A stretch of 26,980 nucleotides of DNA from IMG/VR virus record IMGVR_UViG_3300032356_000010, positions 1 to 26,980 of that record. One strand, 5' to 3'. Origin of the DNA: a virus. Within the stretch, counting starts at the first letter, position 1; each line of letters begins with the position of its first letter. The notes beneath the pieces are model-generated. The model was given only the letters and a program-made list of their open reading frames with translations, searched no databases and had not been told where the DNA came from. Below, piece after piece: positions 5,340 through 21,612 of this stretch. The position numbers were made by a program, and so were the translations under genes.

Positions 5340-6083
5340 CTAGAACGCGGTGCCGAAGGCGCGGCTCAGACCGCTGGTGTTGACCCGCGTCTTGGCATCG
5401 GCGGGAGCCGGAAGAGCGATGGGCCGGATCGGGTTCTGCGGGATCGGGAACTGGCCCGGCACCAGAGCGCCGATGCCGAAGCCGTACTGCCGCAGCCCGG
5501 GCACGAAGGTGCTGATCGCCGTGGAGCCGACCAGCATCAATGCGCCGAACGGAACGCCGGCCTTGAATTCCCGCGCGGTTTCGCCGTTGCCGCCCATCTT
5601 GTCGGCAGCCCAGCTGACCAGCATGGCGCTGATGCCATCGCTCAGCAGCGGGGCGAACTGCCCGGCGAAGCCGAGCAGACCGGGCGGGATGATCTTCGAA
5701 ACCAGCCGCGTGGCGGCCACGCCGGTCAGACCGCCCAGCACCGCCGTGCCCTTCACTCCGCCGAACATCGGATTGCGGCGGCGGCGGCTGTAACGGCGGC
5801 GGTAGACGGCCAAGGCCGGATTCCGGCGGTACCGGCGGCGGTTGCGCCGGCGGCGCACCGGGGGAGCGATCAGGGAAACGAGCTTTCGCCGGGGATTCCG
5901 GCGGCGACGACGGGAACGAGCCATGGGATTCTTTCTCCTTTTCCTTCGGGGATTGACTGCGCCGAGCGTAAGCACGAGCGCGGGGTTGCGGCGCAGGATT
6001 CTCCTGCGCCTGATCGGATTCAGCCTGCGGCGAGCCTTCCTGCGCGGATTCGCCACTCGCCGCACCACTTTCACCACAGCCAT
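5340..6083 (-). CDS. Arg-rich RRNP-repeat protein with hydrophobic C-terminal half
   Basis: 247 aa from the ATG at 6083, preceded by AAAGGAGAACCAGA. The first ~110 residues are dominated by Arg with eight Asn-Pro dipeptides, mostly in the form RRNP/RKNP (for example RRLNPIRR, LRRNPAL, RRKNPMAR, RRRRRNPRRK, YRRNPAL, RRRRNPMF). The C-terminal half is Gly/Ala-rich with hydrophobic stretches (GTAVLGGLTGVAATRLV, LLSDGISAMLVSWAA, FGALMLVGSTAISTFVPG), which could be amphipathic or membrane-associated helices. The N-terminus should bind nucleic acid or another polyanion, so a genome-condensing core protein joined to a shell- or membrane-contacting domain is a reasonable inference. An in-frame ATG at 5924 also has an AGGAGA-like sequence upstream and could give a 194-aa form. 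Confidence 0.65.
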   Translation of the reverse strand: MAVVKVVRRVANPRRKARRRLNPIRRRRILRRNPALVLTLGAVNPRRKRRKNPMARSRRRRRNPRRKLVSLIAPPVRRRRNRRRYRRNPALAVYRRRYSRRRRNPMFGGVKGTAVLGGLTGVAATRLVSKIIPPGLLGFAGQFAPLLSDGISAMLVSWAADKMGGNGETAREFKAGVPFGALMLVGSTAISTFVPGLRQYGFGIGALVPGQFPIPQNPIRPIALPAPADAKTRVNTSGLSRAFGTAF

Positions 6084-6141
6084 TCTGGTTCTCCTTTCTG
6101 TGGTCTCCGCGCGATGGCGGATGTCAAGCATTCAGGGAGCA

Positions 6142-7497
6142 TCAGTTGACGATCCCCTCCCGCTTGATCTTGTACGAACCGCCGACCAGCTCGAGCTGTC
6201 TGTTGATCCGGTCGTAGACGACGGCGGGCTGGAATCCGCCCTCCTCGCCCAGCTCGTGCTCGTAGTCGATGGTTTCGAAATTGTCGAAGTCCTTCTCGGT
6301 GCGGTACACCAGCGTGTTCAGCACGCCGAGCAGCACCTTGTCCTTCTGCACGGCCTCCGTATCGCCGTCGAGGATCTGCGCCAGCGTCTCGTCGTCGATT
6401 GCCTGGTCGCCGCCGATGATGTACAGCTGGTTGCAGTCCGTGCTGGAGCACAGCAGCGGCTGATCGTCTTCGAACGCGATCCGGAACTTGACCTTCGCGG
6501 GCGAGGTCAGCGTCAGCTCCTCCAGAGCGCCGATGGCCGCCAGGTTTTCCCTCATGGCGACGGCCTCCTCGACGACGACCTCCTCCCCGCTCTCCCTGCC
6601 ATGGAAGGTCTCGTAGACCTTCTCGGCGTCCTCGTAGGCGTCCTTCAGCTCGGGTGCGTCCGCAGGCAGCTCCGACCAGGATTCCTCCACCGGCTCCTCT
6701 CCTTCGGGGTTCCGCTCCAGGCGGATCGACGGATTCTGCTGCGACTGCGCGGCATCGGGCGCGTCGTAGCCCCTCAGCGTGCCGTGATGCAGCGCGTAAT
6801 GCAGAGCATCGGCCAGAGGGTCCAGGTCGACGGAGTCGATGTAGCGGCTGTGGAAGCCCTCCCTCGGAGCGCCCCGGTGCAGCCGGTAAACCGGGCTTTC
6901 CGGCGTGCCCTCGGGCATCTCGGTCCAGATCGACAGCGCCAGGCCCAGCGCCGGATCGTACTTGTCCGCCCGCGCGGCGAAGAAGGCTCCCTTGCGGATA
7001 GGCACGCGGTGCTCCGGCTCCGTTGCGGGCGTCTCCTCCCAGGCGTCCTGCAGCTTCCGGAAGATGGTTTCCGCCAGGTAGCGGGACAATACGTCTTCTG
7101 TATCGCCTTCCGGGTTCCTCCGCCTGCCCTGCAGGCCGCGCTTCCGCAGCGATTCGCGGGTCGGGTAGGCGACCAGCTCGTAGCGCCCGCTGGGCATGCG
7201 GTAGACCGAGACGTGGACGAAGATGTTCGGATCCGACGTCGCCAGCAGCAAGCTCACCGTGCGGTCGTAGGGCACGGCGGTGTTGATGTAGTCGGCCATG
7301 CTCAAACCGGCCTGCGCCGCCGCGCGGTCCAGCAGGGAGTTGATCTCGGCCAGCGTCTCGAAGTAGCCCTTGCCGTGCCGGTCGAGGTAATCCATGATCT
7401 TGCGAACCTTGCGGTCCAGCTCGCGGCCCTCGCTGCTCGCCGGATTCTTCGCCGTGGGAACGCCGAGCCGACGGTAGAAGTCTTCCATTCTGCCCAT
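6142..7497 (-). CDS. Multidomain protein with basic-Asn-Pro linkers, unknown
   Basis: 451 aa; the start ATG overlaps the upstream TGA by one base. I do not recognise a family. The protein divides at Asn-Pro motifs: KNP at residues 17-19, RRRNP at 125-129 and ERNP at 261-264. Between them lie a mixed alpha/beta domain (helical hairpin 25-65, then strands NIFVHVSVYR and YELVAYP), a second domain with ALGLALSIWTEMP and HHGTLRGYD, and an acidic C-terminal region (about 265-310, rich in Glu) that leads into a last domain (VKFRIAFEDDQ, CSSTDCNQLYIIGGD, LVYRTEKDFDNFETIDYEHE). No membrane segment. The linker motif is shared with the neighbouring proteins and suggests common handling of these products. 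Confidence 0.6.
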   Translation of the reverse strand: MGRMEDFYRRLGVPTAKNPASSEGRELDRKVRKIMDYLDRHGKGYFETLAEINSLLDRAAAQAGLSMADYINTAVPYDRTVSLLLATSDPNIFVHVSVYRMPSGRYELVAYPTRESLRKRGLQGRRRNPEGDTEDVLSRYLAETIFRKLQDAWEETPATEPEHRVPIRKGAFFAARADKYDPALGLALSIWTEMPEGTPESPVYRLHRGAPREGFHSRYIDSVDLDPLADALHYALHHGTLRGYDAPDAAQSQQNPSIRLERNPEGEEPVEESWSELPADAPELKDAYEDAEKVYETFHGRESGEEVVVEEAVAMRENLAAIGALEELTLTSPAKVKFRIAFEDDQPLLCSSTDCNQLYIIGGDQAIDDETLAQILDGDTEAVQKDKVLLGVLNTLVYRTEKDFDNFETIDYEHELGEEGGFQPAVVYDRINRQLELVGGSYKIKREGIVN

Positions 7498-8714
7498 CAG
7501 TCTGCTGCTCCTTTCAGATCCTCGATGTTGATCAGCTGGGACACGGTCCGCTTCGCCTTGGGGTTGTTGCCCTGCCCGTGCGCGGCGAACGCAATCGCGC
7601 TCCGGGTCCGGTGCAGGAAGTCATCCCGCAGGCAGAGCTTGCACTCGAGGCACCAGACGCGCTCCAGCTTGTTGTTCTTCGCGGCGACCTCGTGCGGGCA
7701 GGGGATGAGGCGGAAACCGTTCTCCGCCATCATCGCCTTGCCCAGTGTGATGACCTGCTCGCCCATCTTCTTCTGCAGGTAATCCGGCACGACGACGCAT
7801 GTTCCGTAACCGCGCCGGTGCGCTTCCTCCAGGTCGTCCACGGTGTCGCAACTGGCCAGCACGCTGATCTCGCGGGGCCACGCCGAGCGCGGCACATCGC
7901 GCCAGCCGTGCGTGTAGTTCCACACGTTCCTGGCGTCCGGCGCTCCGCCCTCGCGCACGCCCGCGCCGGTCAGCCTGCCCTCGGCGAACAGTCTGACTGC
8001 GCTGCCGACGGTTCTGGCCGCAGTCGGAGTCACGCAGTCGCCGACGACATGCAGCCGGACGCCGTTGTTCAGCCGTAGCAGCTGCCAGAACGGGTGCGCC
8101 AGCCGGAGCACGGCGGCCTCGTCCTCGGCCACATCCTCCGGCGTGTAGCGGTTCTTCGACGGATCCTTGCCTATGGCCAGCCTGCTGATGCCCGCCGCTA
8201 CGTTCAGGTGCTTGGTGTGCGCAACCGCCTGAGTGCCTTCCTCGGCGTAGCAGCCCGAATCGTACAGCGGGCAGCGGAAGCCGCTCTCGTTGTTCCTGCC
8301 GTCCGGGCAGCTCGCCTGGGAAACATTGGTGCACATCGTCGGCCCGGTTTTCGAATTGCCGCTGTTGATGCTCGCGTTGGCCAGACGCCGTGGCGACCAC
8401 AGCACGATGGAAGCGATATCCCTCTTCGACTTCGACATGCCTGCATCAAGCAGCGCCTGCTTCAGCCCGTTGAAGCGGTCCTGCAGGTTGGAGGAACTGA
8501 TGAGGGCTTCCACCTTGGCCTTGGAGATGTTGTCCCACTTGGGGCCTTTGCTCTTCTCCTTGGGGTTGCGTGCGCGGAAGCCCAGCGCACGCAGCAGCTC
8601 GGCAGCCGCCTCGAAATCCAGATGCGCGACTTCCCCGCTATCCAGGGGGCGGCTGCCTCCGCGAGGCGTCCAGATCGCGGTGTCGCCGCCAGCTGTCCTC
8701 AGGTTGATCGCCAT
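7497..8714 (-). CDS. GP88/DUF7227-like cysteine-cluster protein
   Basis: 405 aa. A small N-terminal domain (1-46) is joined by RARNPKEKSKG to the main domain. There, four cysteines (C128, C136, C148, C155) lie in NSGNSKTGPTMCTN, ASCPDG, FRCPLYDSGCYAEEG. This is followed by RLHVVGDC, WNYTHGW, ISVLASCDTVDDLEEAHRRG and a C-terminal cluster C339, C355, C358, C361 ahead of IAFAAHG. The order CYA - 'R-h-GD' - 'YTH' - CxxCxxC - 'HG' is the pattern I associate with GP88/DUF7227-type phage proteins, whose function is, to my knowledge, unestablished. The cysteines probably hold zinc or an iron-sulfur cluster. GGAG lies upstream of the ATG. A nucleic-acid or small-molecule-modifying enzyme is possible. 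Confidence 0.6.
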   Translation of the reverse strand: MAINLRTAGGDTAIWTPRGGSRPLDSGEVAHLDFEAAAELLRALGFRARNPKEKSKGPKWDNISKAKVEALISSSNLQDRFNGLKQALLDAGMSKSKRDIASIVLWSPRRLANASINSGNSKTGPTMCTNVSQASCPDGRNNESGFRCPLYDSGCYAEEGTQAVAHTKHLNVAAGISRLAIGKDPSKNRYTPEDVAEDEAAVLRLAHPFWQLLRLNNGVRLHVVGDCVTPTAARTVGSAVRLFAEGRLTGAGVREGGAPDARNVWNYTHGWRDVPRSAWPREISVLASCDTVDDLEEAHRRGYGTCVVVPDYLQKKMGEQVITLGKAMMAENGFRLIPCPHEVAAKNNKLERVWCLECKLCLRDDFLHRTRSAIAFAAHGQGNNPKAKRTVSQLINIEDLKGAAD

Positions 8715-8717
8715 CGC

Positions 8718-9284
8718 CTATGCTGCTCCTTTCCGGGGCTTCCATTTGACGCCGCCGCGAGTGAACTGCTCCGCCCAGTAATCCTCGCCCATGCCGGACC
8801 GGAACTTGCCGCCCGCAATCTGCCTTCCATCGCGCCACAGCGCGAAATGCCCGGTGGAAACCGCGTCGGCGCGGGAGGCGTAGCGGGCCGAGTCGGCGAT
8901 GGACGCGGCATGCGCAGACTCGACGAGCTTCCCCCTGCCGTCGTGCAGGGTGACCATGTAAGGCAGCGCCTCAGCCGGGTTGCGCCTGCCAGCCGCAGCC
9001 ATCTTTTGGAAGCGCTCCTTGCCGTACTTGCGGCGTCCGATCCATGCAGCCAGGGCTTTCGGATCGTCCGCTCCCTTGCGCTTGATCGACTCGGCCAGTT
9101 TCCTGAAGCCCATGTACGGGTTCTTCAGCCGGTAGCCCGCCTTCAGGTAGCGCTGGATCTCGCTGCTGTAAGCAGGCACGATGCGCCGGGTCGAACTCTC
9201 GATCCGGCTGCGCTCTTCGTACACCTCCTGGCTCACCGGAGTGATCGTCTTCTGTCTTTCGTCGATCAGGTAGTAACCCGGCAT
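8718..9284 (-). CDS. Protein with KYG-type helical module between two RNP linkers
   Basis: 188 aa; GAAGGAG sits 6 bases ahead of the ATG. Three segments are separated by basic-Asn-Pro motifs (RLKNP at 52-56, GRRNP at 99-103). The central segment, KALAAWIGRRKYGKERFQ followed by KMAAAG, is a small helical module that I have the impression of seeing repeatedly in environmental phage proteins, often next to an RRNP. The C-terminal segment (LPYMVTLHDGRGKLVESA, SARYASRADAV, HFALWRDGRQIAGG) looks like a small alpha/beta domain. No catalytic residues are evident. The stop lies four bases before the next gene's ATG. Likely a virion-associated or assembly protein, by context only. Confidence 0.6.
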   Translation of the reverse strand: MPGYYLIDERQKTITPVSQEVYEERSRIESSTRRIVPAYSSEIQRYLKAGYRLKNPYMGFRKLAESIKRKGADDPKALAAWIGRRKYGKERFQKMAAAGRRNPAEALPYMVTLHDGRGKLVESAHAASIADSARYASRADAVSTGHFALWRDGRQIAGGKFRSGMGEDYWAEQFTRGGVKWKPRKGAA

Positions 9285-9295
9285 GGAGAACTCCT

Positions 9296-9826
9296 TCACT
9301 CTGCCGGAGCCGCCGGAGCGGGAGCCGGAGCCGGAGCCGGAGCCGCTGCCCGACGCCTGGATCGAATCAGCTCCACCGCACGCTGGCCAGCCGTCGAATG
9401 CTTCAGCCGCGCTTCCTGCAGGGCGCGGTAGTAGTCCGCCTTGGCCTGCAGTTTGGCCGCCTTGTAACCGGCGCGGTCCTTGCGCATGGTGATCAAAAAC
9501 AGAGCGCCGATGCCGATGACCAGCGCCCACTGCCCAAGCGTCCACCGCCCCGGGTTGGCCCACGAGGCCAATTCCGATCCCAGGTCGATTGCGCCAAGGC
9601 CCTGGATCACCGCTTTGCCCGACCGCTGGCCCGGCGGCAACCCGATGGTCGACAGCGCGTTGGCCAGCGGATTCTGCGGCAGCGTCCAGTTCGCGGCGAC
9701 CAGCTCGCCGACTCCGACCGTCCGCGCCACCGGCTGGCGCGGCTGGAACGGATTGTTCGGCACGACAAACCAGCCCGGGATCAGCTCCCCGAGGCCAGGC
9801 GCTGGATGAATGTTCAGGTGAGCCAT
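9296..9826 (-). CDS. Single-pass membrane protein with Ala-Pro tail, unknown
   Basis: 176 aa. An N-terminal region rich in Pro/Asn/Gly (GWFVVPNNPFQPRQP, NWTLPQNPLANAL) leads to a transmembrane helix at about 98-114 (LGQWALVIGIGALFLIT). A basic helix (MRKDRAGYKAAKLQAKADYY) and a C-terminal tail of alternating Ala-Pro follow. By the positive-inside rule the basic helix faces the cytoplasm or virion interior. The Pro-Ala tail is encoded by a GGAGCC-type tandem repeat. It is the last of the run of membrane proteins that begins at 16074. I infer a membrane-embedded virion or envelope-spanning component. Confidence 0.62.
   Translation of the reverse strand: MAHLNIHPAPGLGELIPGWFVVPNNPFQPRQPVARTVGVGELVAANWTLPQNPLANALSTIGLPPGQRSGKAVIQGLGAIDLGSELASWANPGRWTLGQWALVIGIGALFLITMRKDRAGYKAAKLQAKADYYRALQEARLKHSTAGQRAVELIRSRRRAAAPAPAPAPAPAAPAE
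9321..9345. repeat. GGAGCC tandem repeat
   Basis: About four copies of a 6-base unit inside the 9296-9826 gene. On the coding strand they encode the Ala-Pro dipeptide run near the C-terminus. The number of units could vary in frame by slippage. Confidence 0.7.
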
Positions 9827-9830
9827 AGCT

Positions 9831-10274
9831 TCATGCCCTCTTCGCCAAGATGATGACCGCCACCACTGCGGCGGCACCCACGACAAACCACAATCCCGGC
9901 CTGGACACGGCGTCCGCGACGGCCTCTCCGGCTTGGTAAACTCCGGACTGGAACTGGGCGATGCCGCCGGTCGCCTCCAGCCATGCATTGGTGAGCTGTT
10001 GCTGCTGCCGCCGAGTCTCCTGCGCCGATTCCTCCGGGTTCCATGACACCGGATTCCGAATCTGCTCCTCTGTCTTCGGCGCAGCGGGAGGCACAACGGG
10101 AACGCCCTTGCAGCCGATGCCGATCCACCTGCAGTGCCAAGGTTCTCCCATGTTGCACTCGTAGAGCGGACGCACTCCAATCGGCGTGGCGATGATCGAC
10201 GACCAGGTCCCCGTCGGGCACTTGGACGGATCGTCGACCACCTTCACCGTTACGGCTCCCAGTCCGATCATCAT
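9831..10274 (-). CDS. Tail-anchored small membrane protein with MMI N-terminus
   Basis: 147 aa from the ATG at 10274, which overlaps the upstream TGA (ATGA); a GTG three codons earlier is an alternative. It opens MMIGLGAVTVKVV, then has a small Cys region (DPSKCPTGT, LYECNMGEPWHC, GIGCKG) comparable to DPGECPLGT and VRYRC of the 13662-13946 protein. A linker contains IRNPVSWNPEE, then a Gln-rich helix. A C-terminal transmembrane segment (about 126-143, LWFVVGAAAVVAVIILA) ends in KRA. The bulk therefore lies on one side of a membrane with a three-residue tail on the other. Role in virion membrane or envelope complex inferred from the surrounding genes. Confidence 0.62.
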   Translation of the reverse strand: MMIGLGAVTVKVVDDPSKCPTGTWSSIIATPIGVRPLYECNMGEPWHCRWIGIGCKGVPVVPPAAPKTEEQIRNPVSWNPEESAQETRRQQQQLTNAWLEATGGIAQFQSGVYQAGEAVADAVSRPGLWFVVGAAAVVAVIILAKRA

Positions 10275-10606: not shown

Positions 10607-10611
10607 CGCGT

Positions 10612-11113: not shown

Positions 11114-11126
11114 CGCGGCAAAACCT

Positions 11127-12468: not shown

Positions 12469-12471
12469 AAC

Positions 12472-13662
12472 CTACTTCCTCCCCCCGCCCGACATCGCAA
12501 ACAGCAGCGCCGCTGCGCCGCCGATCAGCAGCAGCATCGGGAGGCCGGTGCCGGCTGACTGGACGATGACTCCCGGCGTCTGGCCGCCGGTATCCGGAGT
12601 CCGGCTGCCGGGCTGAGGCGGCTGGTTCGCGGCGGGCAGCTCCGGCGTCTGCACACTGGCTCCAGGAATCTGTGTGCTGCTGCCAGGTGTCACGGTCACG
12701 TTGCCCGGCGGCTGCGACGGGTTCGCCAGCTCGAAGTCCAGCCTGCCGACAATCTCGCCGCCGACGTAGACGTTCTCCTGCCAGCGCCCGGCGTGCTCCG
12801 GCTGCCACGATCCGGAGATCTCGTAGTAGCCCTGAGCGTTGGTCGCGCCGTAGGCGGTCCTGCCATGGCTCTGGCCGTTCTGCCACGCCTCGATCTCCAC
12901 GGTTTGGTTCGGCAGGCCCCAGATCTTCAGCGTGAACCTGCCGCCAGTCTTGTAGCCGTCCGGCGCGAGCAACTGCACGTTGCGGCGGTAGGCGGTCGTG
13001 GTAGCGGCGGTGTTGGATGCCTGTGTCTGTGTCTGTGTCTGCGTCGCCGGTGCTGTCGCGTAGGCAAACTCCTGGGGCAACTGAACCTGAGCCGATGTGC
13101 CGGACGGCTGCACGAGCACGGACGTGTTGATCCCGGTGGAGTAGCCCTGCATCGGGGCGGCGTAGATGCCGAAAAGGTACGCGATATCGGATGCCTCTTC
13201 CTGCGGCGAGTTGTGGCGCACCGGGTTTCCGATGCTGGCATCCATGCTCTTGCCGTCCCTGGACAGCACAGCCTGGTACTGGAACAGACCGACGCAGCCC
13301 GCGCCGGGATCGCAGGACGAGCCGAGGATGTTGACCGAGAACCCGGCGCTCTGGAGCGCGGCCACCACGGCATCGGCATATTGCCTCGACTGCGCGAAGT
13401 AGATGTTGACCCACTGGGTCTTGGCCGCGAGATCCTGCACCGGATCGCCGAAGACGGATGGCGCGGGCGGAATCATCCCGCCCAGCCCGAGCAGGTAGCC
13501 GCGCACCTCGGGCATCCGCTGGCGGCCCCACTGCGGACTGCGGTTCTGCCTCGACCACTGGCTGCCGGGACGGAGCGCAGCCGCAGTCTGGCTTGGGCCA
13601 TATGCCGGACGCAGCGCCCAGCCCGGGTCTTCATCGAACTTTCCTTGCACGGGCAGCTGCAT
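12472..13662 (-). CDS. Large tail-anchored surface protein with Ig-like domain and PDTG motif
   Basis: 396 aa; AAAGGAGGAC within the upstream gene's end serves the ATG, which overlaps the upstream TGA. Residues about 75-205 form one domain (TQWVNIYFAQSRQYADAVV, FSVNILGSSCDPGAGCVG, DIAYLFGIYAAPMQGYST). A TQTQTQTQ run at about 207-214 leads to an Ig-like domain at 229-313 (FTLKIWGLPNQTVEIEAW, ATNAQGYYEISGSW, GRWQENVYVGGEIVG). A Pro/Thr/Gln-rich stalk containing TPDTGGQ at 355-361 is followed by a transmembrane helix at 374-390 and the tail SGGGRK. The Ig-like domain plus stalk plus C-terminal anchor is the layout of a membrane-tethered surface protein. No enzyme motif seen. Confidence 0.65.
   Translation of the reverse strand: MQLPVQGKFDEDPGWALRPAYGPSQTAAALRPGSQWSRQNRSPQWGRQRMPEVRGYLLGLGGMIPPAPSVFGDPVQDLAAKTQWVNIYFAQSRQYADAVVAALQSAGFSVNILGSSCDPGAGCVGLFQYQAVLSRDGKSMDASIGNPVRHNSPQEEASDIAYLFGIYAAPMQGYSTGINTSVLVQPSGTSAQVQLPQEFAYATAPATQTQTQTQASNTAATTTAYRRNVQLLAPDGYKTGGRFTLKIWGLPNQTVEIEAWQNGQSHGRTAYGATNAQGYYEISGSWQPEHAGRWQENVYVGGEIVGRLDFELANPSQPPGNVTVTPGSSTQIPGASVQTPELPAANQPPQPGSRTPDTGGQTPGVIVQSAGTGLPMLLLIGGAAALLFAMSGGGRK
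13021..13045. repeat. TGTGTC tandem repeat inside a coding region
   Basis: About four copies of a 6-base unit that, on the minus strand, encode alternating Thr-Gln in the linker between the two domains of the 12472-13662 protein. Confidence 0.7.
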
Positions 13663-13946
13663 CAGTCCTCCTTTCCGCCACTGAACAACCATAGCGCAGC
13701 CAGCGCCAGGCCGCCGATGAGAAGCCATCTCGGCGTGACGCCGAACCTCGCCAGCGCGGGCGATTCCGGAATGCATCGGTATCGGACCACCGTAATGGAT
13801 GTCGTGCCTGGCGCAGATCCCGGGTCGTAGATCTCCGCTTTCGTCCCCAGCGGGCATTCGCCGGGATCGGAGACGAGCTTCATGTCGCACGGGCAGGGCG
13901 GCGCGATGCATTGGCAATCCGCAGCGCCCAGTCGCACTATGGGCAT
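13662..13946 (-). CDS. Small Cys-rich tail-anchored protein
   Basis: 94 aa; two bases separate its ATG from the upstream stop. It opens MPIVRLGAADCQCIAPPCPC, continues with MKLVSDPGECPLGT and VRYRCIPESPALARFG, and ends with a transmembrane helix (PRWLLIGGLALAALWLF) and tail SGGKED. The six cysteines in the first ~58 residues suggest disulfides or metal binding on an exposed face. The DPGECPLGT-to-VRYRC segment resembles DPSKCPTGT-to-LYEC in the 9831-10274 protein, so the two are probably diverged relatives. The last codons (AAG GAG GAC) form the ribosome binding site of the following gene. Confidence 0.62.
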   Translation of the reverse strand: MPIVRLGAADCQCIAPPCPCDMKLVSDPGECPLGTKAEIYDPGSAPGTTSITVVRYRCIPESPALARFGVTPRWLLIGGLALAALWLFSGGKED

Positions 13947-13948
13947 GG

Positions 13949-14686
13949 CTAACCGTCCTCCTTCTTCATAAGCAGAAAGATCCCTGCGCCGGCCAGCAGC
14001 AGCGGCAGCAGCAGGCCGCTGCCGGACAACGGAACCAGAGCGCCGGTGACCGGATCGATGGTCGCATTCACAGGATCCGGGCGCGGCGCGTCCCTGGCGA
14101 TGGGGTCGCGGTACAGAGTGAAGTAGTCGCAACCGGTTCCCGTGGGGCACCACGGGGCGCTGCCGCCTCGCTGGCGCTCCTCGATGCACCGGCGGCCCGG
14201 GTCGCCGCCCACCGCCGCGCATCCCCGGATGATGTAATCCCACAGCGCGTCGAAGTTGGCCAGCGCCTGCCGCTGGCTGGAGACCGTGCGCGGCCCGTTC
14301 ATGTAGGCCTCCAGGTTCTCCTTCATCTTCGCCTCGGCCTCGTCTACCACTTTCGTCGCCTGCTCCTTGCGGATGTTGCTGATCCGGTTCCGCATGAGCC
14401 AGAAAGTGACCCCGGCCACCGCCGCCCCGATGACCGGGATTGCAATTGCTGCAGCGCTGCCGAACATGGCCGGTGCAGCCGCCGTCGCCGCAGCGCCCGC
14501 TGCGTTGACTGCGGTCACCGAGGGCGGAGCGCCGCTTGCCACGCCGGAGGCAAGGACGTTCGATGCGGCACCGGCGGCGCTCTGGTACGGGTTGTACCCG
14601 CCGGGGTAGCCGAGGATGACGACGTCGTCGACCGAGGGCGTGTAGCCGTCTCCGAGCGCCGCCAGTGCAGGATGGAGCATTGCCAT
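13949..14686 (-). CDS. Two-helix membrane protein with DPVTG motif
   Basis: 245 aa. Residues 1-75 are Ala/Gly/Ser-rich. A first hydrophobic helix at about 77-98 (AAIAIPVIGAAVAGVTFWLM) is followed by a basic-acidic helix (RNRISNIRKEQATKVVDEAE) and a conserved-looking central block (ANFDALWDYIIRGCAAVGG, DPGRRCIEERQRGG, CDYFTLYRDPI). A linker with DPVTGA at 211-216 precedes a second helix at 222-240 and the tail KKEDG. I have the impression of having seen the ANFDxxW / CIxxRQRGG / YRDPI pattern in environmental phages, where it is unassigned. Both ends probably lie on the same side or the first helix is amphipathic. A membrane-pore or penton-like role is conceivable but unproven. Confidence 0.62.
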   Translation of the reverse strand: MAMLHPALAALGDGYTPSVDDVVILGYPGGYNPYQSAAGAASNVLASGVASGAPPSVTAVNAAGAAATAAAPAMFGSAAAIAIPVIGAAVAGVTFWLMRNRISNIRKEQATKVVDEAEAKMKENLEAYMNGPRTVSSQRQALANFDALWDYIIRGCAAVGGDPGRRCIEERQRGGSAPWCPTGTGCDYFTLYRDPIARDAPRPDPVNATIDPVTGALVPLSGSGLLLPLLLAGAGIFLLMKKEDG

Positions 14687-14728
14687 GAGCCGCCTCAGAT
14701 CTCCAGTGCCATCGCCATTGCCGCCTGC

Positions 14729-15088
14729 TTACCGCAGCGGGAGAATCACCTTGAGATCCCCGCTCCTGGTGCGCTTGATCTTGGCCGTGACGTAGCGGTT
14801 GGTCGGAATCGGGTTCTTCTTCCGCTTGGTCGCTTCCTTCAGCGCCGATTCCGCCCGCTTCCTCGCGCCGGACGCGGTCTTCAGGGTCGTCCGGGCCTTG
14901 CGGCTGGCCTTGGCGATCTGCGCCGCCCGCTTGGCCTTCGACTTCGCGCCACGGCTGCCAGCCTTGGTTTTGTACTGGGCCGATTCGCCGACCCGGTCCG
15001 GGTCGTAGTCTCCGGAGGCGCGGATCGGATGGAAGACTCCGTTGCCGTCGTAGTAACCGGCGGCGATATTCTTCACTCGCAGTGGCAT
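14729..15088 (-). CDS. Small basic soluble protein with RKKNP linker
   Basis: 119 aa; GAAGGAGACTGACCC precedes the ATG. An N-terminal beta segment (MPLRVKNIAAGYYDGNGVFH, PIRASGDYDPDRVGE) leads to a Lys/Arg/Ala-rich helix (SKAKRAAQIAKASRKARTTL and on to ALKEATK). RKKNP then introduces a C-terminal strand pair (NRYVTAKIKRTRSGDLKVIL). I believe I have seen the 'AAGYYD-G-FHPIRAS-DYDP' opening in other uncultured-virus proteins. It has no membrane segment. The basic helix is likely to bind DNA, RNA or acidic lipid. Only 42 bases separate it from the next gene. Confidence 0.6.
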   Translation of the reverse strand: MPLRVKNIAAGYYDGNGVFHPIRASGDYDPDRVGESAQYKTKAGSRGAKSKAKRAAQIAKASRKARTTLKTASGARKRAESALKEATKRKKNPIPTNRYVTAKIKRTRSGDLKVILPLR

Positions 15089-15091
15089 GGG

Positions 15092-15400
15092 TCAGTCTCC
15101 TTCTCCTCGAAGCAAAAGAAACAGCGCGACGCCGCCCAGCAGCAGAAGCGATAATCCGGAGAAGCTGCTCCCGATGACGCGCTCCGGAGTAGATGGCTGA
15201 GATGGCAGCACCGCGCCCGGCGTGCCGGGTCCGGTCTGGTAAATCCGCGTTCCGCCAGCGCCTGTCTCCATGACCAGCGGCTGGTTCTGGTTCAGCAGGA
15301 TCTGCTGGCCGGTCTTGCTCCAGCCCTGGGTGATGGACTGGAACCAGTCGGTCCAGCTGCCCGACAGTCCGTTGCAGCATGGCTTGGCGGAGTACATCAT
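15092..15400 (-). CDS. Tail-anchored small membrane protein
   Basis: 102 aa; the ribosome binding site GGAGATAG is formed by the last codons of the transglutaminase-like gene, 9 bases ahead of the ATG. It opens MMYSAKPCCNG, has an aromatic helix (WTDWFQSITQGWSK), a Pro/Thr/Gly/Gln stalk (LVMETGAGGTRIYQTGPGT) and a C-terminal transmembrane helix (FSGLSLLLLGGVALFLLL) with tail RGEGD. The last codons contain GGAGAAGGAGAC, which acts as the ribosome binding site of the next gene. A membrane-anchored virion or envelope component by context. Confidence 0.6.
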   Translation of the reverse strand: MMYSAKPCCNGLSGSWTDWFQSITQGWSKTGQQILLNQNQPLVMETGAGGTRIYQTGPGTPGAVLPSQPSTPERVIGSSFSGLSLLLLGGVALFLLLRGEGD

Positions 15401-15405
15401 GGCGG

Positions 15406-16074
15406 CTATCTCCTCGACATCAGGACGGCGGCTCCGATCACGCCCAGCGCGATCAGGCCCGGTCGGATCTTGTCAATATCCAGGTTGAGGACCACGGGCT
15501 TGCGGATCGGCCACTCCGTCCTGCGGTAGACGCCTTGCACCTCCCACCCGGCGTAGGGTCCGTGGCTGGCGTCGATGGGAAACCTCTTTCCGTCGCGGTA
15601 GCTGGCGACGTAAACATGGCTGAACTGGGCCGGGTCGCGCTCGTCGGCGGCCACGGTGACATAGCTTGCCTGGATTCCCTGGGCGAGCAGCATGGACGCG
15701 GCGAGCATGGAGTAGTCGTCGCAGTCGCCCTGCGCCACCGGCACCGGCAGCGCGAGCAGGTCGCGGGGCCGGATCAGGGTTTCGACGATGTAGTCCTTGT
15801 ACCAGCGTTGGAACGGCTGGCTGAGGGCCTCATCATTGACGAACCGGATCCTGGCCCGGATGAAGCGGTAGATCTGTTCCTCGGGAGTCAGCCCAGGATA
15901 CATCCGCTGCGCCGCGGCGACGGCTTGCCGGACTTCCGGCGACTCGCTGTCCTCGGCGGCGTACTTCGACATCAAGCCGATGACGGCAGACGTCTGGCTG
16001 TCGCCGTACTCGGGGACCGGCGACAAGTCGTACCTCACCTTGCCGAAGCCGGGCAAGAAGGCGGTGCCGGGCAT
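15406..16074 (-). CDS. Membrane-anchored transglutaminase-fold cysteine enzyme
   Basis: 222 aa, first gene of the long minus-strand unit. A complete papain/transglutaminase-like triad is visible: C118 in VAQGDCDDYSML, H153 in QFSHVYVASY, D168 in RFPIDASHGPY. The helix carrying the cysteine and the spacing to His and Asp match the transglutaminase-like core. An N-terminal helical region (EVRQAVAAAQRMYPGLTPEE, YRFIRARIRF) precedes it and a single C-terminal helix (PGLIALGVIGAAVLM) ends in SRR. Family members are mostly proteases or amidases; true Gln-Lys cross-linkers exist. Cleavage or cross-linking of the neighbouring anchored proteins is an attractive inference. The start has no clear Shine-Dalgarno sequence; TTAAAAT lies just upstream, so the message could be nearly leaderless. 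Longer in-frame starts run back through the control region and are unlikely. Confidence 0.75.
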   Translation of the reverse strand: MPGTAFLPGFGKVRYDLSPVPEYGDSQTSAVIGLMSKYAAEDSESPEVRQAVAAAQRMYPGLTPEEQIYRFIRARIRFVNDEALSQPFQRWYKDYIVETLIRPRDLLALPVPVAQGDCDDYSMLAASMLLAQGIQASYVTVAADERDPAQFSHVYVASYRDGKRFPIDASHGPYAGWEVQGVYRRTEWPIRKPVVLNLDIDKIRPGLIALGVIGAAVLMSRR

Positions 16075-16222: not shown

Positions 16223-18118
16223 ATGCCCGATGCGAAACGAGCGCCAGAACCGGCCCCGCCGCCCGATCCGGCGGAGGCTATCCTGTTGGAACAACTGGAA
16301 AAGCAGCGCGAGCAGGAAGCCCAGCTGATCACCGAGGAGCAGGAGCAGGAAGAGGAGCAGAAGAAGGAAGTTCCTCCTCCGGTTCCGACCAACAAAGACT
16401 TGCGGAGGAAAAAAGCCAGGCTTATGCGCGGCCTGGACGAGGAGCAGAAGCTCCGGCCCCCGCTGAAGCTGTTTCCGGCCCCGTTCACAATGAACTTCCA
16501 CCCGGACCACAAGGATGCCCGGGGCCGTCCGCCCGCCTTCTGGGACTACTGGAAGCAGGTTTACGATGACCCGGCGCTGCGGGACCGCGTGGTCGTCTAC
16601 ATCTACCGGCTGTGGCCGGTCATGATCGACGGCAAGCGGCAGGTCACCAAAGCCTTCGCACCGTTCCCCTACGAAGACCTGCTGAAGCTTTACGGTTGCG
16701 GCGACTACTTCCTGAAGCTCAACGACGCCGCCGCCAACAAGAAGATGCGGCGCACCATCTGCAACTGCAAGGTGGCGATGGTCGGAAACTACAACCTGAC
16801 GGAGTACCCGCCGTTGCTGGACGTCGAAGGACTGGACGTCTCCAACCCGCACAACGAGCGGTACATCCTGTGGTGCGAGAGCCGGGGCATCAAGATCCCC
16901 GGCAAAGAGGAAGAGGCCAGGAAACAACAACAGCAGCAGAAAAAGAGCGAGGAGGACGATGTGTCCGAAGTAACCAGGATCCTGCTGGATCAGTACACGC
17001 AGCTCACCAACCGCATGATGCGGGACGACAACGGCGGCAAGAAGGCGGCGGTCGATCCGACGATGGCCGCCGTCGCGCCCATGGTCGCCGTCATCAAGAC
17101 GGCCACCGAAGGAGCCAACCAGATCATGCAGAAAGCCTACGAGCGGACTGCGCAGTTGCAGCAGCAGCAGCAGAACCCCACCAAGGCGATCACGGAAACC
17201 GTCACCGCTCTCAAGGAGCTGCTGCCGCAGAACGACGCCAACGCCTCCAAGATGGTGACCAGCTACCTGGAGGCGATGAAGGAGATGTCGAACGCCATCA
17301 CCAAGGTGAACAGCGAGTACGTCGATCGCATGGTGCAGATGACCAACCAGCGGCTGCACAGCCACGAGGAGCAGATGAAGGCGCTGCTCGAGGCCATCGC
17401 CAAGCGGCAGGAAGCGGCTCCCGCAGCCGCATCGGCAGCCGGACAATCGCAGTCGCTCAAGGACATGCTGCGCGAGATGGCCGAGTTCAGGGATCAGATG
17501 CGCGAGGTGCTGGGGGTCGATGACGACAAGCCGGCAAAGAGCAGCGGCTGGGCCGAGTACCTGCCGGACATTCTGAAAGCCGTCACTGTGCTCGGAACCA
17601 CCATCGCTGCAGCGATGCATAACTTCGCGGTCGCCAAGACCGGCCAAGGCCAGCCCTTGCCGGTGCAGCCGATGACTCCCTCGGCGGCACCTCCTCCGCC
17701 ACCGCCGGTGCAGGCGTCCGCAGAACAGCCAACACAGGAGCAGCAGCCTGACATGATGGCCCAATACCATAACCTGTTGTCGATGCTCAGGCCAAGCCTG
17801 CTGAAGTCGTTCATGGACGGGGAAAGCGGGGCCGATTACGCCGAGCGCCTCATCGAGCTGACCGATGCAGGCCTGTTCGGACCGACCTACAGCGGACGCC
17901 AGATCTATGACGCGATTCTCGAAGCGGGCGAGCTGAGCGTATCAACCGTGATCAAGACTTTCCCGCCAATCTGGGACGTGGTGAAGCAGACCCCGCAAAA
18001 GTGGGAGCGCTTCCTGCACGAGTTCTTCACGGCGGACGAGATCTGGGCGAAGGAGGACGCGGAAGCAGAGCAGCAGGCGATGCCGCATCCGGCTCTGGAC
18101 CGGAAAAAGAAAAACTGA
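16223..18118 (+). CDS. Large Q-rich coiled-coil protein with one globular domain, unknown
   Basis: 631 aa from ATG 16223 (GAGGTG at 16213-16218 gives good spacing; GTG 16202 and ATG 16220 are alternatives). Layout: acidic, Glu/Gln-rich helix (about 18-45); a globular domain at about 75-215 (AFWDYWKQVYDDPALRDRVV, YIYRLWPVMID, YEDLLKLYGCGDYFLKLND, CNCKVAMVGNYNLTEYPP); a long Gln/Met-rich helical region (about 235-430); a hydrophobic patch (ILKAVTVLGTTIAAAMHNFA); a Pro-rich linker; and a C-terminal helical domain (AQYHNLLSMLRPSLLKSFMD, YAERLIELTDAGLFGPTYSG, WERFLHEFFTADEIW). 'YGCGDYFLKL' recalls a 'YGGG-Y-L-L' strand I associate with other uncultured-virus proteins. First gene of its operon. A scaffold, tape-like or DNA-organising role is possible. 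Confidence 0.6.
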   Translation: MPDAKRAPEPAPPPDPAEAILLEQLEKQREQEAQLITEEQEQEEEQKKEVPPPVPTNKDLRRKKARLMRGLDEEQKLRPPLKLFPAPFTMNFHPDHKDARGRPPAFWDYWKQVYDDPALRDRVVVYIYRLWPVMIDGKRQVTKAFAPFPYEDLLKLYGCGDYFLKLNDAAANKKMRRTICNCKVAMVGNYNLTEYPPLLDVEGLDVSNPHNERYILWCESRGIKIPGKEEEARKQQQQQKKSEEDDVSEVTRILLDQYTQLTNRMMRDDNGGKKAAVDPTMAAVAPMVAVIKTATEGANQIMQKAYERTAQLQQQQQNPTKAITETVTALKELLPQNDANASKMVTSYLEAMKEMSNAITKVNSEYVDRMVQMTNQRLHSHEEQMKALLEAIAKRQEAAPAAASAAGQSQSLKDMLREMAEFRDQMREVLGVDDDKPAKSSGWAEYLPDILKAVTVLGTTIAAAMHNFAVAKTGQGQPLPVQPMTPSAAPPPPPPVQASAEQPTQEQQPDMMAQYHNLLSMLRPSLLKSFMDGESGADYAERLIELTDAGLFGPTYSGRQIYDAILEAGELSVSTVIKTFPPIWDVVKQTPQKWERFLHEFFTADEIWAKEDAEAEQQAMPHPALDRKKKN

Positions 18119-18134
18119 TGTATACTGGCCGCAG

Positions 18135-18332
18135 ATGCTGGCCCGGGCGACCGGCTCCGTCTATACCGTGCAGTACCGGTGCATCTACCGCGAGCACTGG
18201 TACGACGACAGCGACTACCCGTCGATAGAGGAAGCCGTCGCCCGGGCCTGGCAGCTTGCGGTTGAGGAAGACCGGACGGCCCGAGTCGTGGATCCGTACG
18301 GGCGGGTCGTCTACGCCACGGCGATGCCATGA
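18135..18332 (+). CDS. 65-aa protein, unknown
   Basis: Starts 16 bases after the preceding stop and ends in a TGA overlapping the next ATG. Strand-rich opening (GSVYTVQYRCIYREHWYDD), one helix (SIEEAVARAWQLAVEED) and a short strand pair (RTARVVDPYGRVVYAT). This beta-alpha-beta layout resembles small phage domains that wrap one helix against a sheet. No membrane helix or motif. The ribosome binding site is weak, so translation is probably coupled to the upstream gene. Confidence 0.55.
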   Translation: MLARATGSVYTVQYRCIYREHWYDDSDYPSIEEAVARAWQLAVEEDRTARVVDPYGRVVYATAMP

Positions 18333-18649
18333 GCGACGACGAGCTGATCGAGATCGGAGAAACGGCGGTTAGCGTCCTGGGCAAGGATGCGGCGGAAAAG
18401 CTGTCGGATATCGGGGATCTTCTGGACGAGTACAGCATCCCGGAGATCCGCGAGCGCCTGCAGCGGCTGGAGCAGCTGGAGGAGCGGATGGCCGACCTCG
18501 AGGAGTCGGTTGACTTCGACCGGCTCCGAGACATAGCGAAGCGGGCGAAGTCGGCGACTGCTGCTGCGGAGAAGCTCGAGAGCGCATTGTCAGACCTGGC
18601 CGACGACCTGCTCGAGTGGATGACCGATCTGCATGCGCGGTTGAGATGA
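18329..18649 (+). CDS. Acidic coiled-coil protein
   Basis: 106 aa, overlapping both neighbours by four bases (ATGA at each junction). Almost entirely helical and acidic, with clear heptads: IPEIRERLQRLEQLEERMAD and then LESALSDLADDLLEWMTDL. It should form a dimer or higher coiled coil. In phage operons proteins of this kind act as chaperones, scaffolds or assembly adaptors. Here a partner may be the coiled-coil protein encoded at 16223-18118. No further family recognised. Confidence 0.6.
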   Translation: MSDDELIEIGETAVSVLGKDAAEKLSDIGDLLDEYSIPEIRERLQRLEQLEERMADLEESVDFDRLRDIAKRAKSATAAAEKLESALSDLADDLLEWMTDLHARLR

Positions 18650-19002
18650 AGCACGCGGCCCTGGCTTTCCTGCTTGCAGTTCTGCTGACGGGCCAGACGC
18701 GCGTTCACGGGCCGACGCAGATCCGCTACCTGGCTTCGGGCAACGGCGCTGTTAGCTGGTACTACGGCAGCCTCAGCTTCGGCACCCTCGCCGCAGGCCA
18801 GTGCGCCGAGCTGAACTTCCCGGCACAAGGCGTCTCGCCCGGGCTGGCGCTCGCTCCGGGCTGGCCGCCCGATCTGCCCAAACCGGTTTCCGGCATCATG
18901 TATGCAGGGGCGGACGCGGTCGTCGTCCGGCTCTGCGCATCGCAGAACGTCAACGTCCCGCCGGGGCTGACCTACTCGGCGGCAGCGCTCGTATGGAGAT
19001 GA
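18646..19002 (+). CDS. Secreted protein with phage-spike-type beta domain
   Basis: 118 aa. The ATG at 18646 overlaps the upstream TGA. MKHAALAFLLAVLLTGQTRV is a good Sec signal peptide with cleavage probably near residue 20-22. The mature part, LSFGTLAAGQCAELNFPAQG to GADAVVVRLCASQNV, matches a small beta-sandwich pattern I recognise from phage tail and spike proteins ('AG-CAELT-G' then 'TVTVRLCN'). Two cysteines (C in GQCAE and in RLCAS) could form a disulfide after export. It is unusual for such a module to be exported on its own by a Sec signal; a periplasmic or outer-surface role (receptor masking, superinfection exclusion, envelope remodelling) is possible. Confidence 0.62.
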   Translation: MKHAALAFLLAVLLTGQTRVHGPTQIRYLASGNGAVSWYYGSLSFGTLAAGQCAELNFPAQGVSPGLALAPGWPPDLPKPVSGIMYAGADAVVVRLCASQNVNVPPGLTYSAAALVWR

Positions 19003-19006
19003 ACCC

Positions 19007-19447
19007 GTGAAGAAGATGCTCGTCTATTCCGCCTGCCTGCTGGCCGCCGCAGCGGTCGCCAGCCTGCCGGTCGTGACCGCCCAGACAAAGCCGTCTACCA
19101 GCCAGATCCGGGGTCCGGTGCTGACCGACGCCCGCGTCCTGGTTTTATCCAGCGGCAAGATCGGCTTTGCGGCGCTGGGCACCGGCGTCCAGCTCGTCCA
19201 GACGCCGGGCGGCTGGGAGCTGCAGGCCGTGCCGCAGCCGCAGCAGACTGCGGACGCCGTGCTGACGCGGGCCGCAGACGGCGGCTGGACCCTGCCCGCA
19301 TCCTGCTCTCTGCAGGCGGTCTACCGCAACGGCATCCGGCAGGTGCGCCCGCTCGACTACTCGGTCTCCGGCGGCGCGATCCGGTTCACCGACGGCACCG
19401 GCGACCCGTCGCAGGCCGACGACGTCGTGGTCGCGGTCTGCCGCTAG
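19007..19447 (+). CDS. Secreted protein with phage-tail-type C-terminal module
   Basis: 146 aa starting at GTG 19007, four bases after the previous stop. MKKMLVYSACLLAAAAVASL plus PVVTAQT is a clear Sec signal peptide. The C-terminal half, VYRNGIRQVRPLDYSVSGG then IRFTDGTGDPSQADDVVVAV, matches a module I know from phage tail and baseplate-like proteins ('VYRNG-RQ-P-DY-SG--I-F----DDV-V-Y'). Paired with the preceding exported protein, it likely acts in the periplasm or on the cell surface. It ends in TAG overlapping the stop of the convergent SNF2 gene by four bases; no terminator hairpin separates them. Confidence 0.65.
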   Translation: MKKMLVYSACLLAAAAVASLPVVTAQTKPSTSQIRGPVLTDARVLVLSSGKIGFAALGTGVQLVQTPGGWELQAVPQPQQTADAVLTRAADGGWTLPASCSLQAVYRNGIRQVRPLDYSVSGGAIRFTDGTGDPSQADDVVVAVCR

Positions 19448-21612
19448 ATGCCGCGCGACATCACCAGTTCATCCAGCTCATCCTCGCCGGTCTCCGGGTT
19501 GCGCTTCCGCGCGGCTGGCTGCGCTGAAGCCGATCCGGGACCGTACAGCTCTTCGTAGACCGCCGGCCCCAGGTGCTCCACGATCTGGCGGCGATACTTG
19601 CGGCAGATGGTTTTGGCCAGAGCCGCCATGCCGGGCGTCCACAGTTCGTCCGGCGTGTTGGCCAGCCGGTGGCCGATGGCCGCGTCCAGCTTGTTGAATC
19701 CGGCGTCGTCCAGCGTCCGGGCCTTGTCGCACAGCGCGGCGATGAACCGGATGATGCTGCGGGCCGCACGCTGCTGCGGCTCCGACATCGACTCGCCTTC
19801 CTGCTGCAGGCGCTGGCGCGGCGTGAGCACTGCGGCTGCTGCGGACGGCGCGGCATCGGTCCTGGCCAGCGCGGCGGGCACAATCGGCTCGTCGAGGAAC
19901 TCGGGCTTCTCCTCGGTGCCAGCGCCCTTGTTGTCGAGCGCCTTGCGGTTGGTCTCCTGCTTCTCCACGATGGCCTGGGCGATGCGTGCGGTGAGCGATC
20001 CTTCGAGCACCAGGTGCTGCACCAGCACCGGATCGCTCTGCCCGATGCGGTGGCAGCGGTCCTCGCCCTGCTCGATGTTGGCCGGAACCCAGTCCAGCTC
20101 GATGAAGATGACATGGGACGCAGCGGTCAGCGTGATGCCCACGCCCGCTGCAGTGATGGAACCGATGAAGACGTCCGCGCCGCCTTCCGTCTGCTGGAAG
20201 CTGTCGACGGCGGCCTGCTTGTCCGCCGCGCTCATGCCGCCGACGAGCTTGGCCACCTTGTAGCCCTTCTCGGACAGATGGTTTTCGATCAGCTCGATGA
20301 CGTCTCGGTGGTGGGCGAAGACGACCAGTTTGCGGGAGTTCTCCACGGCATCCTCGAGATAGCCCAGCGCAGCCTTGGCCGTCGCCAGGCCAACCTCGTG
20401 CCGGATCCGCGCCATCTCCTCGAAGGCGACCGAATGCGCCTGCCTGAGCTTTTTGACCGCCGCGCGGTAGGCCTCATCATCTCCGCTCGCCTTGGCGATC
20501 TCCATCTCGGCCTGCGCGGCCAGCAGCGAGTCCTGCTTCTTCCTGGCGTGCTCGTACTCGGCGCGGATCACCTCCGCCGCGCCGCTTGCGTCCAGTTCGA
20601 CAACCTGCCGGATCTTCGGAGGCAGCTCGGTGAGCACCTGCGACTTCAGCCGCCGGATCATCACATGCAGGCGCAACTGATGCTGCAGCTCGTCGAGGTT
20701 GTCCGGCCCCAGGAACTGCCAGCCGTAACGCGTCTGGGTGTAGCCTGCGTAGCGCATCCAGAACTTGCGCCGGGTCTGGAAGTGCTCGAAGCGGCTGAAG
20801 ATGGGCACGTTCAGCAGGCAGTAGTCAACTATGGTCCAGAGATCCTGCGGGCGGTTGTAGATGGGCGTGCCGGTCAGCATCAGCCGCCGCTTGGCCTGCA
20901 ACGGCGGAAGGTGGATGATCCACTGGCGACTGTCCGGATCCCACGTCTTGCTGCCGACGATCTGCACCGTGCGCTTGGCGTCCGGGTTCTTGATGTAATG
21001 CGCCTCGTCGATGATGGCGATGTCCCAGACGCGGCTGCGCAGCTCGCGGCTGAAGCGGACGAGCAGGTCGTAGTTGATGATGACGATGTCCGATTCCGGC
21101 CAGCCGGTTTTGCTGTCGACGATGCCGATGCTGCGGTCCCGGACGAGCCACTTCCTCAGTTCGCGCTGCCAGTTGATCTTGAGGCTCGCGGGGCAGACCA
21201 CTAGCACGTTGCGGCAATCCTGGCCCAAGTAGTTGATCAGGCCGATGGCCTGGATGGTTTTGCCCAGGCCCATCTCGTCCGCGATCAGCGTTCCCTCGCG
21301 CTCCAGCGCGTAGGCGACCCCCGCCTTCTGGTAGCCCAGGTAGCTGAGGTTCGGCGGAGCGGGGATGTCGATGTCGGCCTTGACGGCATGGCTCGCCTCG
21401 AGCTGCCTCTGCTGCTTGCGCCGCCAGTTGTTGATCTCGTCCGCCGCCGCCGCGTCGAAGTACTGCTGCAACTTTAGCGCCTTCTTGTAGTCGGCGGTCT
21501 GCCACTCCTTGGCATCGCGGTTCCACCACCAGCCCGCCTCGTTCGGGATCAGGCGCTTGTCGTAGGGTCCGCGCCAGCGGAACAGACCGCCGTAAAAAGT
21601 GACGTATCTCAT
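19444..21612 (-). CDS. SNF2-family DEAD/DEAH helicase-like ATPase
   Basis: 722 aa. A short N-terminal domain (GGLFRWRGPYDKRLIPNEAG, WWWNRDAKEW) precedes the SNF2 core: QxxGVAYALEREGTLIADEM, Walker A GLGKT at 115-119, Walker B DEAH at 202-205 (IIDEAHYIKNP), motif III LMLTGTPIYNR, and in the second RecA lobe GSITAAGVGITLTAASH and the arginine-finger region EDRCHRIGQ. This resembles the SMARCAL1-like helicases common in phages, which translocate on or anneal DNA using ATP. A C-terminal extension of about 160 residues contains SIIRFIAALCDKA and RKRNPETGEDELDELV. That RKRNP matches the linker motif of the left-hand structural proteins. The start overlaps the ParB-like stop (ATGA). Confidence 0.9.
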   Translation of the reverse strand: MRYVTFYGGLFRWRGPYDKRLIPNEAGWWWNRDAKEWQTADYKKALKLQQYFDAAAADEINNWRRKQQRQLEASHAVKADIDIPAPPNLSYLGYQKAGVAYALEREGTLIADEMGLGKTIQAIGLINYLGQDCRNVLVVCPASLKINWQRELRKWLVRDRSIGIVDSKTGWPESDIVIINYDLLVRFSRELRSRVWDIAIIDEAHYIKNPDAKRTVQIVGSKTWDPDSRQWIIHLPPLQAKRRLMLTGTPIYNRPQDLWTIVDYCLLNVPIFSRFEHFQTRRKFWMRYAGYTQTRYGWQFLGPDNLDELQHQLRLHVMIRRLKSQVLTELPPKIRQVVELDASGAAEVIRAEYEHARKKQDSLLAAQAEMEIAKASGDDEAYRAAVKKLRQAHSVAFEEMARIRHEVGLATAKAALGYLEDAVENSRKLVVFAHHRDVIELIENHLSEKGYKVAKLVGGMSAADKQAAVDSFQQTEGGADVFIGSITAAGVGITLTAASHVIFIELDWVPANIEQGEDRCHRIGQSDPVLVQHLVLEGSLTARIAQAIVEKQETNRKALDNKGAGTEEKPEFLDEPIVPAALARTDAAPSAAAAVLTPRQRLQQEGESMSEPQQRAARSIIRFIAALCDKARTLDDAGFNKLDAAIGHRLANTPDELWTPGMAALAKTICRKYRRQIVEHLGPAVYEELYGPGSASAQPAARKRNPETGEDELDELVMSRGI

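Follow-up and report, generated by a model that had tools for sequence, protein, structure and literature searches.

A basic-Asn-Pro signature at module edges of proteins encoded in one gene block of environmental viruses

Introduction

Short sequence elements that recur in several proteins of one virus include the sites of core-protein maturation, as in adenovirus pVII and mu and in asfarvirus pp220. Recurrent Asn-Pro (NP) elements are represented by arrays of NPF motifs, which are bound by EH domains (PMC12370899, PMC2238750) and by other receptors (PMC12808100), and the exchange of small domains between phage proteins through linkers is described in a study of phage lytic cassettes (PMC10630273). 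Here we describe an element consisting of basic residues followed by Asn-Pro in virus record IMGVR_UViG_3300032356_000010 (G000), the 26,980-nt stretch that we refer to throughout as the window, and in related contigs, labelled G00x or L0xx. The element recurs in a group of modular proteins encoded side by side, and its most likely role is that of a hinge at the junctions between modules. A literature search found no paper describing a basic-Asn-Pro motif of this kind or this group of viruses.

Excess of the motif in one gene block

About 25 related environmental contigs, many of them 45–63 kb, were found by means of the proteins encoded at 4637–5248 and 15406–16074. Most of the loci compared are 20-kb pieces, and they share ancestry, so the members of a protein family are not independent; gene calls were made with our own script. 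The 41 curated open reading frames of the window contain 38 NP dipeptides against 18.6 in shuffled sequences, and the pattern [RK].?NP, in which Arg or Lys stands at one of the two positions before NP, occurs 18 times against 3.7 (12 against 3.3 without the 5340–6083 protein). Nine proteins carry this pattern where 3.4 are expected (P ~0.005). An initial annotation of the window had listed such sites in at least seven unrelated proteins; all are present in the sequence, with the 5340–6083 protein having nine NP, six of which follow a basic residue by one or two positions, and the excess over shuffles places the motif above the frequency that composition alone would give.

The order of the residues and the location of the genes are both informative. 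Among 24 related loci there are 109 instances of [RK]NP, compared with 15–51 for other orders of the same three residues and 25 in shuffles. The proteins encoded between the families of two membrane proteins, A (9296–9826) and B (5340–6083), have 73 instances against 6.9 in shuffles, and A and B themselves 18 against 2.6, whereas all of the other genes in these loci have 18 against 17.7 and are at background (1.0x). Six control phages (lambda, Mu, PRD1, P23-77, Tunturi_1 and Mvi-JY20) when pooled give 12 against 11.7, with a mild excess of NP (1.4x). The confinement of the [RK]NP excess to the A-to-B block, which corresponds to positions 5340–9826 of the window, shows that neither the virus as a whole nor the Arg-richness of a genome accounts for it.

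Within the block, the families of the 6142–7497, 7497–8714 and 8718–9284 proteins, which we refer to as the modular proteins, have 62 instances of [RK]NP against 3.6 in shuffles (17-fold). All 34 members carry [RK].?NP (6.1 expected), and they have 147 NP compared with 24.8 when the proteins are shuffled. Shuffling of local 26-residue windows gives 183 observed against 20, but these windows are centred on NP and thus biased, and we do not use them as main evidence.

Shape and conservation of the motif

The basic residues are sharply bounded. In the 34 modular proteins, Arg or Lys is present at frequencies of 0.35, 0.39 and 0.42 at positions -3, -2 and -1 (background 0.15) and is back near background at -4 (~0.17) and +1 (0.19), while Asp and Glu are reduced to 0.03–0.06 from -7 to -1 (background 0.13) with no depletion downstream. 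A basic residue occupies -1 or -2 in 94 of the 147 NP sites, leaving ~36% without one. The only upstream positions with raised helix propensity are -15 to -9 and -3 to -1. Successive sites are mostly 30–115 residues apart, with a peak at ~50–85 residues.

N-P is the only constant part of the motif, and no residue beyond it is invariant. In comparisons of orthologues NP is identical in 92% of cases versus ~50% in the flanks, the 92% being inflated by anchoring of the alignments. All eight AAY-CCN codon pairs are in use, which indicates selection on the protein and not on a DNA element; the Arg and Pro codons also match the genome background.

Motif sites and module edges

The initial annotation had placed the motif between apparent domains, and the distribution of homology breakpoints agrees with this. 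Ninety of 208 internal breakpoints lie ≤12 residues from an NP, compared with 52 at random (z 6.1), and there is no such association for the controls DP, SP, TP, GP, PG, SG and RK-RK. Cutting the proteins at NP yields recurring modules of about 30–115 residues, in varied order and in different proteins. One example is module D (ALAAWIGRRKYG), the middle of the three pieces of the 8718–9284 protein, which the motif does separate as had been proposed, the middle piece being mobile. NP is directly at the N-terminal edge of module D in all five unique copies from the window family, membership of which was confirmed for one (L059) by its capsid gene, but at an edge in only one of 36 copies from other viral contigs found in the same search, where the module is mostly a protein of 60–110 residues. 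The difference has a Fisher P of 8e-6 (0.005 for fused copies only), values that are optimistic since the five copies are related; the module starts in three of them were read by eye. We note that as a tiny stand-alone protein module D is widespread in viral contigs (L058–L110).

A second example is the 6142–7497 protein, for which the AlphaFold2 (AF2) model has a predicted local distance difference test score (pLDDT) below 50 at residues 1–20, 114–132, 249–287 and 305–317. All four NP lie in such stretches, separating folded parts, although this is a single protein and low pLDDT partly reflects alignment gaps; the structure models were built on 14–15 sequences. The site at residue 128 is directly before a predicted helix and the remaining sites are in coil. 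In a third example, L034 and L035 have an insertion inside the conserved C-terminal domain of this family with NP at each side (VNNPHKQSNP ... MNPRKSSNP and KEQNPQKRK ... VNPRKMNP), where there is none in the other members. Judged from these comparisons of sequences, basic-basic-basic-Asn-Pro is a directional signature at the protein level that marks module edges, with N-P kept by selection while its surroundings change.

PHROGs and Pfam searches with the modular proteins identified DUF7227, DUF2314 and a weak SPOR match, and otherwise no function, while a fold search with the three-domain model gave PUR-repeat-like matches only, with E values of 0.004 and above that are not interpretable. Relatives of the C-terminal domain of the 6142–7497 protein were not found among cultured phages and plasmids. 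The C-terminal part of the 7497–8714 protein matches DUF7227 and Tunturiibacter phage proteins annotated as DNA methyltransferases. A stand-alone relative in G006 beginning MKSNPEST was considered as a mature cleavage product and rejected, as with better gene calls it corresponds to the end of a 634-residue protein (L032).

Membrane proteins A and B

The N-terminal arm of protein B contains 16–39% Arg plus Lys and has NP in every locus, most often as [RK]NP directly before the hydrophobic domain (RRRRNPMFG in the window lineage). Proteins A and B also share a peptide of about 17–20 residues with the consensus G-x-G-D-[LF]-[VI]-x-G-x-F-x-V-P-Q-N-P-[ILV], which is present in two to three copies in A and one near the C-terminus of B. 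Copies from the same genome are more alike (mean score 74.8) than copies from different genomes (46.6), a difference reached in 0 of 20,000 permutations. For example, a 19-residue copy is identical in A and B of L049, all copies in L036 have FPEP[YH]NPIY, and all of those in L043, L047 and L041 are of a PGLPFWPS type, mostly without NP; in L042, L029, L037 and L035 the peptide in A and B is again altered together. Concerted change of this type is what a shared binding partner or homogenisation of repeats would produce, and it points to a partner shared by both proteins at the capsid or the membrane of the virus. The linker [RK]NP sites, unlike the A/B peptide, have no significant genome-specific sequence (P 0.07). 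The proposal that the motif binds one partner is therefore not supported for the linkers but does fit, in kind, this separate peptide, which the initial annotation had not set apart from them. An iterative profile merged the A and B families; we treat them as distinct proteins with a common peptide, and their membrane parts may be distantly homologous.

Other sites and the virus

Outside the block the listed sites fare differently. In the 14729–15088 protein, [RK]-x-NPIP is kept in five of five family members, but the IRNP of the 9831–10274 protein is missing from all four orthologues found, and a second hit in the SNF2 protein (HYIKNP) is inside the SNF2 helicase domain and occurs in the close relative G001 as well. 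Four of the seven proteins named initially (5340–6083, 6142–7497, 7497–8714 and 8718–9284) carry the motif robustly, a fifth (14729–15088) has a conserved copy, and the sites in the 9831–10274 and SNF2 proteins find no support. The transglutaminase-like protein at 15406–16074 has C123, H158 and D173 invariant in eight members and is, by its sequence, the only candidate for a peptidase that could cleave at the motif.

No cultured relative of the virus was found, in that the putative capsid protein has no match among 50,697 phage records. The best structural match to its AF2 model is SPV1, an archaeal virus (6oj0; Z 8.8), followed by HHIV-2 and P23-77 VP17; comparison with the HHIV-2 / P23-77 VP16–VP17 complex gives Z 6.7, and Foldseek matches are weak (E >0.001). 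In the AF2 model, the capsid protein may be of the single jelly-roll kind seen in Singelaviria-type viruses. A close relative of 49 kb encodes a family A DNA polymerase, helicases, an integrase and a Sak4-like protein, and among the proteins scanned there were no matches to terminase, portal or tail families. The capsid model suggests that the window virus represents an uncultured family of tailless-type, single-jelly-roll viruses, and its gene content suggests that it infects prokaryotes. A weak hint as to the host comes from L038 (CAJBIA010000097.1), a contig of 3.6 kb that has a 53%-identical capsid gene and was binned, possibly wrongly, with a Methylophilaceae genome.

Several other features were noted. 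A jelly-roll-like protein encoded at 4137–4565 and its relatives have a conserved N-terminal NP[YI]APP (MRYNPYAPP, MTNPIAP, VRIINPYAPP), a third NP element. Paralogous genes at 22565 and 23200 are in tandem and adjoin a gene at 23862 (22565–24386), with more paralogues in G001. A family member, L039, encodes at 13492–16011 a protein with several near-identical 45-residue repeats (VVDVTNPAAPV).

Table 1. Motif sites, the proteins that carry them and associated genes, with positions in the window.
Position	Strand	Feature	Basis or remark
4637..5248	-	Putative major capsid protein, predicted single jelly-roll	AF2 pLDDT 78; no NP in the window copy
5340..6083	-	Protein B: N-terminal arm rich in Arg/Lys in which RRxNP recurs, membrane-type domain, C-terminal VPQNPI peptide	25 loci
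5421..5477	-	Shared peptide copy in B, GIGALVPGQFPIPQNPIRP	Best ungapped match to A of the same genome
6142..7497	-	Modular protein with NP linkers between its three predicted domains	AF2 mean pLDDT 69; C-terminal domain in all 25 loci
6706..6711	-	ERNPEG site, residue 263 of 6142–7497 protein, before conserved C-terminal domain	Equivalents in L027 (RGMRNPESS), L030 (PKRRNPEVT), L032 (KSNPEST) and others
6730..6735	-	QQNP site, residue 255 of 6142–7497 protein	In pLDDT<50 stretch
7111..7116	-	RRRNPEG site, residue 128 of 6142–7497 protein	RRNP kept in L003, L025, L026, L033; linker length variable
7441..7446	-	AKNP site, residue 18 of 6142–7497 protein	In pLDDT<50 stretch
7497..8714	-	Protein with N-terminal module of ~50 residues, RARNP junction and DUF7227-containing domain	Pfam PF23872; [RK]xNP kept in 5/5 orthologues
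8562..8567	-	RARNPKE site, residue 50 of 7497–8714 protein	Orthologues RVRNP, KVRNP, KARNP, KSKNP
8718..9284	-	Protein divided by NP into three pieces, with mobile module D in the middle	Module architecture; module D elsewhere
8976..8981	-	GRRNPAEA site, residue 102 of 8718–9284 protein, end of module D	Sequence
9117..9122	-	RLKNPYMG site, residue 55 of 8718–9284 protein, start of module D	NP edge in 5/5 family copies, 1/36 elsewhere
9296..9826	-	Protein A, a small membrane protein in which the G-x-G-[DE]-L...NP peptide occurs twice	Sequence comparison
9662..9715	-	Shared peptide copy 2 in A, GVGELVAANWTLPQNPLA	A/B peptide comparison
9740..9796	-	Shared peptide copy 1 in A, GLGELIPGWFVVPNNPFQP	A/B peptide comparison
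14729..15088	-	Small basic protein in which RKKNPIP separates a helix-like basic region from the C-terminal strands	NP at 14810–14815
15406..16074	-	Transglutaminase-like cysteine protein, C-terminal hydrophobic segment	Pfam PF04473/PF01841
19495..19500	-	RKRNPETG, C-terminal tail of SNF2 protein	Also G001 (RKRNPELA); seen in window and G001 only

Discussion

The most likely explanation for the basic-Asn-Pro element, to which we give a probability of about 0.5, is that it acts at the protein level as a hinge at module junctions. The positive charges would close the preceding helix or other element, and Asn-Pro would make a rigid turn, either an Asx-Pro turn or a helix stop or cap, that isolates adjacent modules, such that a module could be swapped or inserted without misfolding of those beside it. 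The arm of protein B, which is Arg/Lys-rich and probably binds nucleic acid, would be interrupted by the same element and brought to an end by it immediately ahead of the membrane domain. The geometry of the turn is inferred, as is the benefit for recombination. A hinge with a helix-capping function had been the null view of the initial annotation, and it accounts for most of the data. If it is correct, a single signature would show how a virus keeps fast-recombining multi-domain proteins foldable, and it would provide a rule by which module boundaries could be located in proteins without known relatives.

Several observations weigh against the hinge. The confinement to one gene block is the fact that it explains least well, as the motif is missing from other multi-domain proteins that these viruses encode, and it does not account for the sharp stop of the basic residues at -3. 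The narrow ranges in which upstream helix propensity is raised argue that a helix-cap role is not general. Also to be weighed are the contributions of alignment gaps to low linker pLDDT and of anchoring to NP identity, the non-independence of family members, and gene calls from our own script.

The strongest rival is processing, in which a virus-encoded, membrane-anchored transglutaminase-like peptidase would cut the modular proteins, and with them the Arg-rich arm of B, at basic-Asn-Pro, giving separate small proteins and basic DNA-condensing peptides in the manner of adenovirus core maturation. The directional profile and strong NP conservation would fit, as would a spacing that amounts to one module per site, the RRxNP arrays in the arm of B, and the presence, in every member checked, of a gene for a conserved Cys-His-Asp enzyme at a distance of a few genes. 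However, the sites flanking the insertion in L034 and L035 are inside the C-terminal domain, which cutting there would break, and with roughly one site in three in the modular proteins having no basic residue at -1 or -2 there is no strict consensus. Most peptidases tolerate Pro at P1' poorly, and the enzyme family is compatible with crosslinking or structural roles as well. Cleavage, one of the roles proposed for the motif at the outset, is thus not favoured, and we regard processing as unlikely; its fuller form, in which the entire A-to-B block would encode modular precursors and a peptidase with a new Asn-Pro specificity would release into the particle both shuffled modules and DNA-binding peptides rich in Arg, is slightly more doubtful still.

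It also seems rather improbable that the [RK]xNP arrays are docking peptides, by which one conserved host or virus receptor would gather the modular proteins and B at an assembly site. A sharply conserved core amid disordered linkers of poor conservation is what short linear motifs usually show, the NPF arrays bound by EH domains provide a precedent (PMC12370899, PMC2238750), and the confinement to proteins encoded side by side would be accommodated. But a receptor does not require placement at module edges, no residue beyond N-P is invariant, and the linker sites do not vary with the genome as the A/B peptide does. Two further explanations are contradicted by the tests made. The linkers are basic, and the control phages do have somewhat more NP than expected, but a compositional accident of Arg-, Asn- and Pro-rich linkers is very improbable given the order control, the conservation of NP and the background level in the rest of the genome. 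That the codons are a recombination or packaging site in the DNA that happens to encode R-N-P would suit the shuffling of modules at these places, but is least probable of all considering the codon pairs used and the ordinary Arg and Pro codons.

Each of the known systems resembles this one in part. The maturation sites of adenovirus and asfarvirus core proteins are likewise short and recur in several proteins, and here too a candidate virus-encoded cysteine peptidase is encoded nearby and Arg-rich products are possible; however, cleavage here would be putative, the consensus is loose, and in two genomes sites fall within a domain that is otherwise whole. With NPF arrays the likeness is a repeated N-P core in disordered regions, the differences being the basic residues before N-P, the lack of a fixed residue after it, and a virus that by gene content appears to be one of prokaryotes. 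The part of the lytic-cassette study considered here (PMC10630273) does not mention a common junction signature, whereas here the signature is present and the modules are without assigned function. The closest likeness to the hinge that we favour is with Asx-Pro turns and capping interdomain linkers, where Asn-Pro is found at helix ends and turns, between folded domains and with low predicted order. What differs from interdomain linkers in general is that one short signature serves almost every junction in a single gene block, is better conserved than its flanks, and is at background elsewhere in the same genome.

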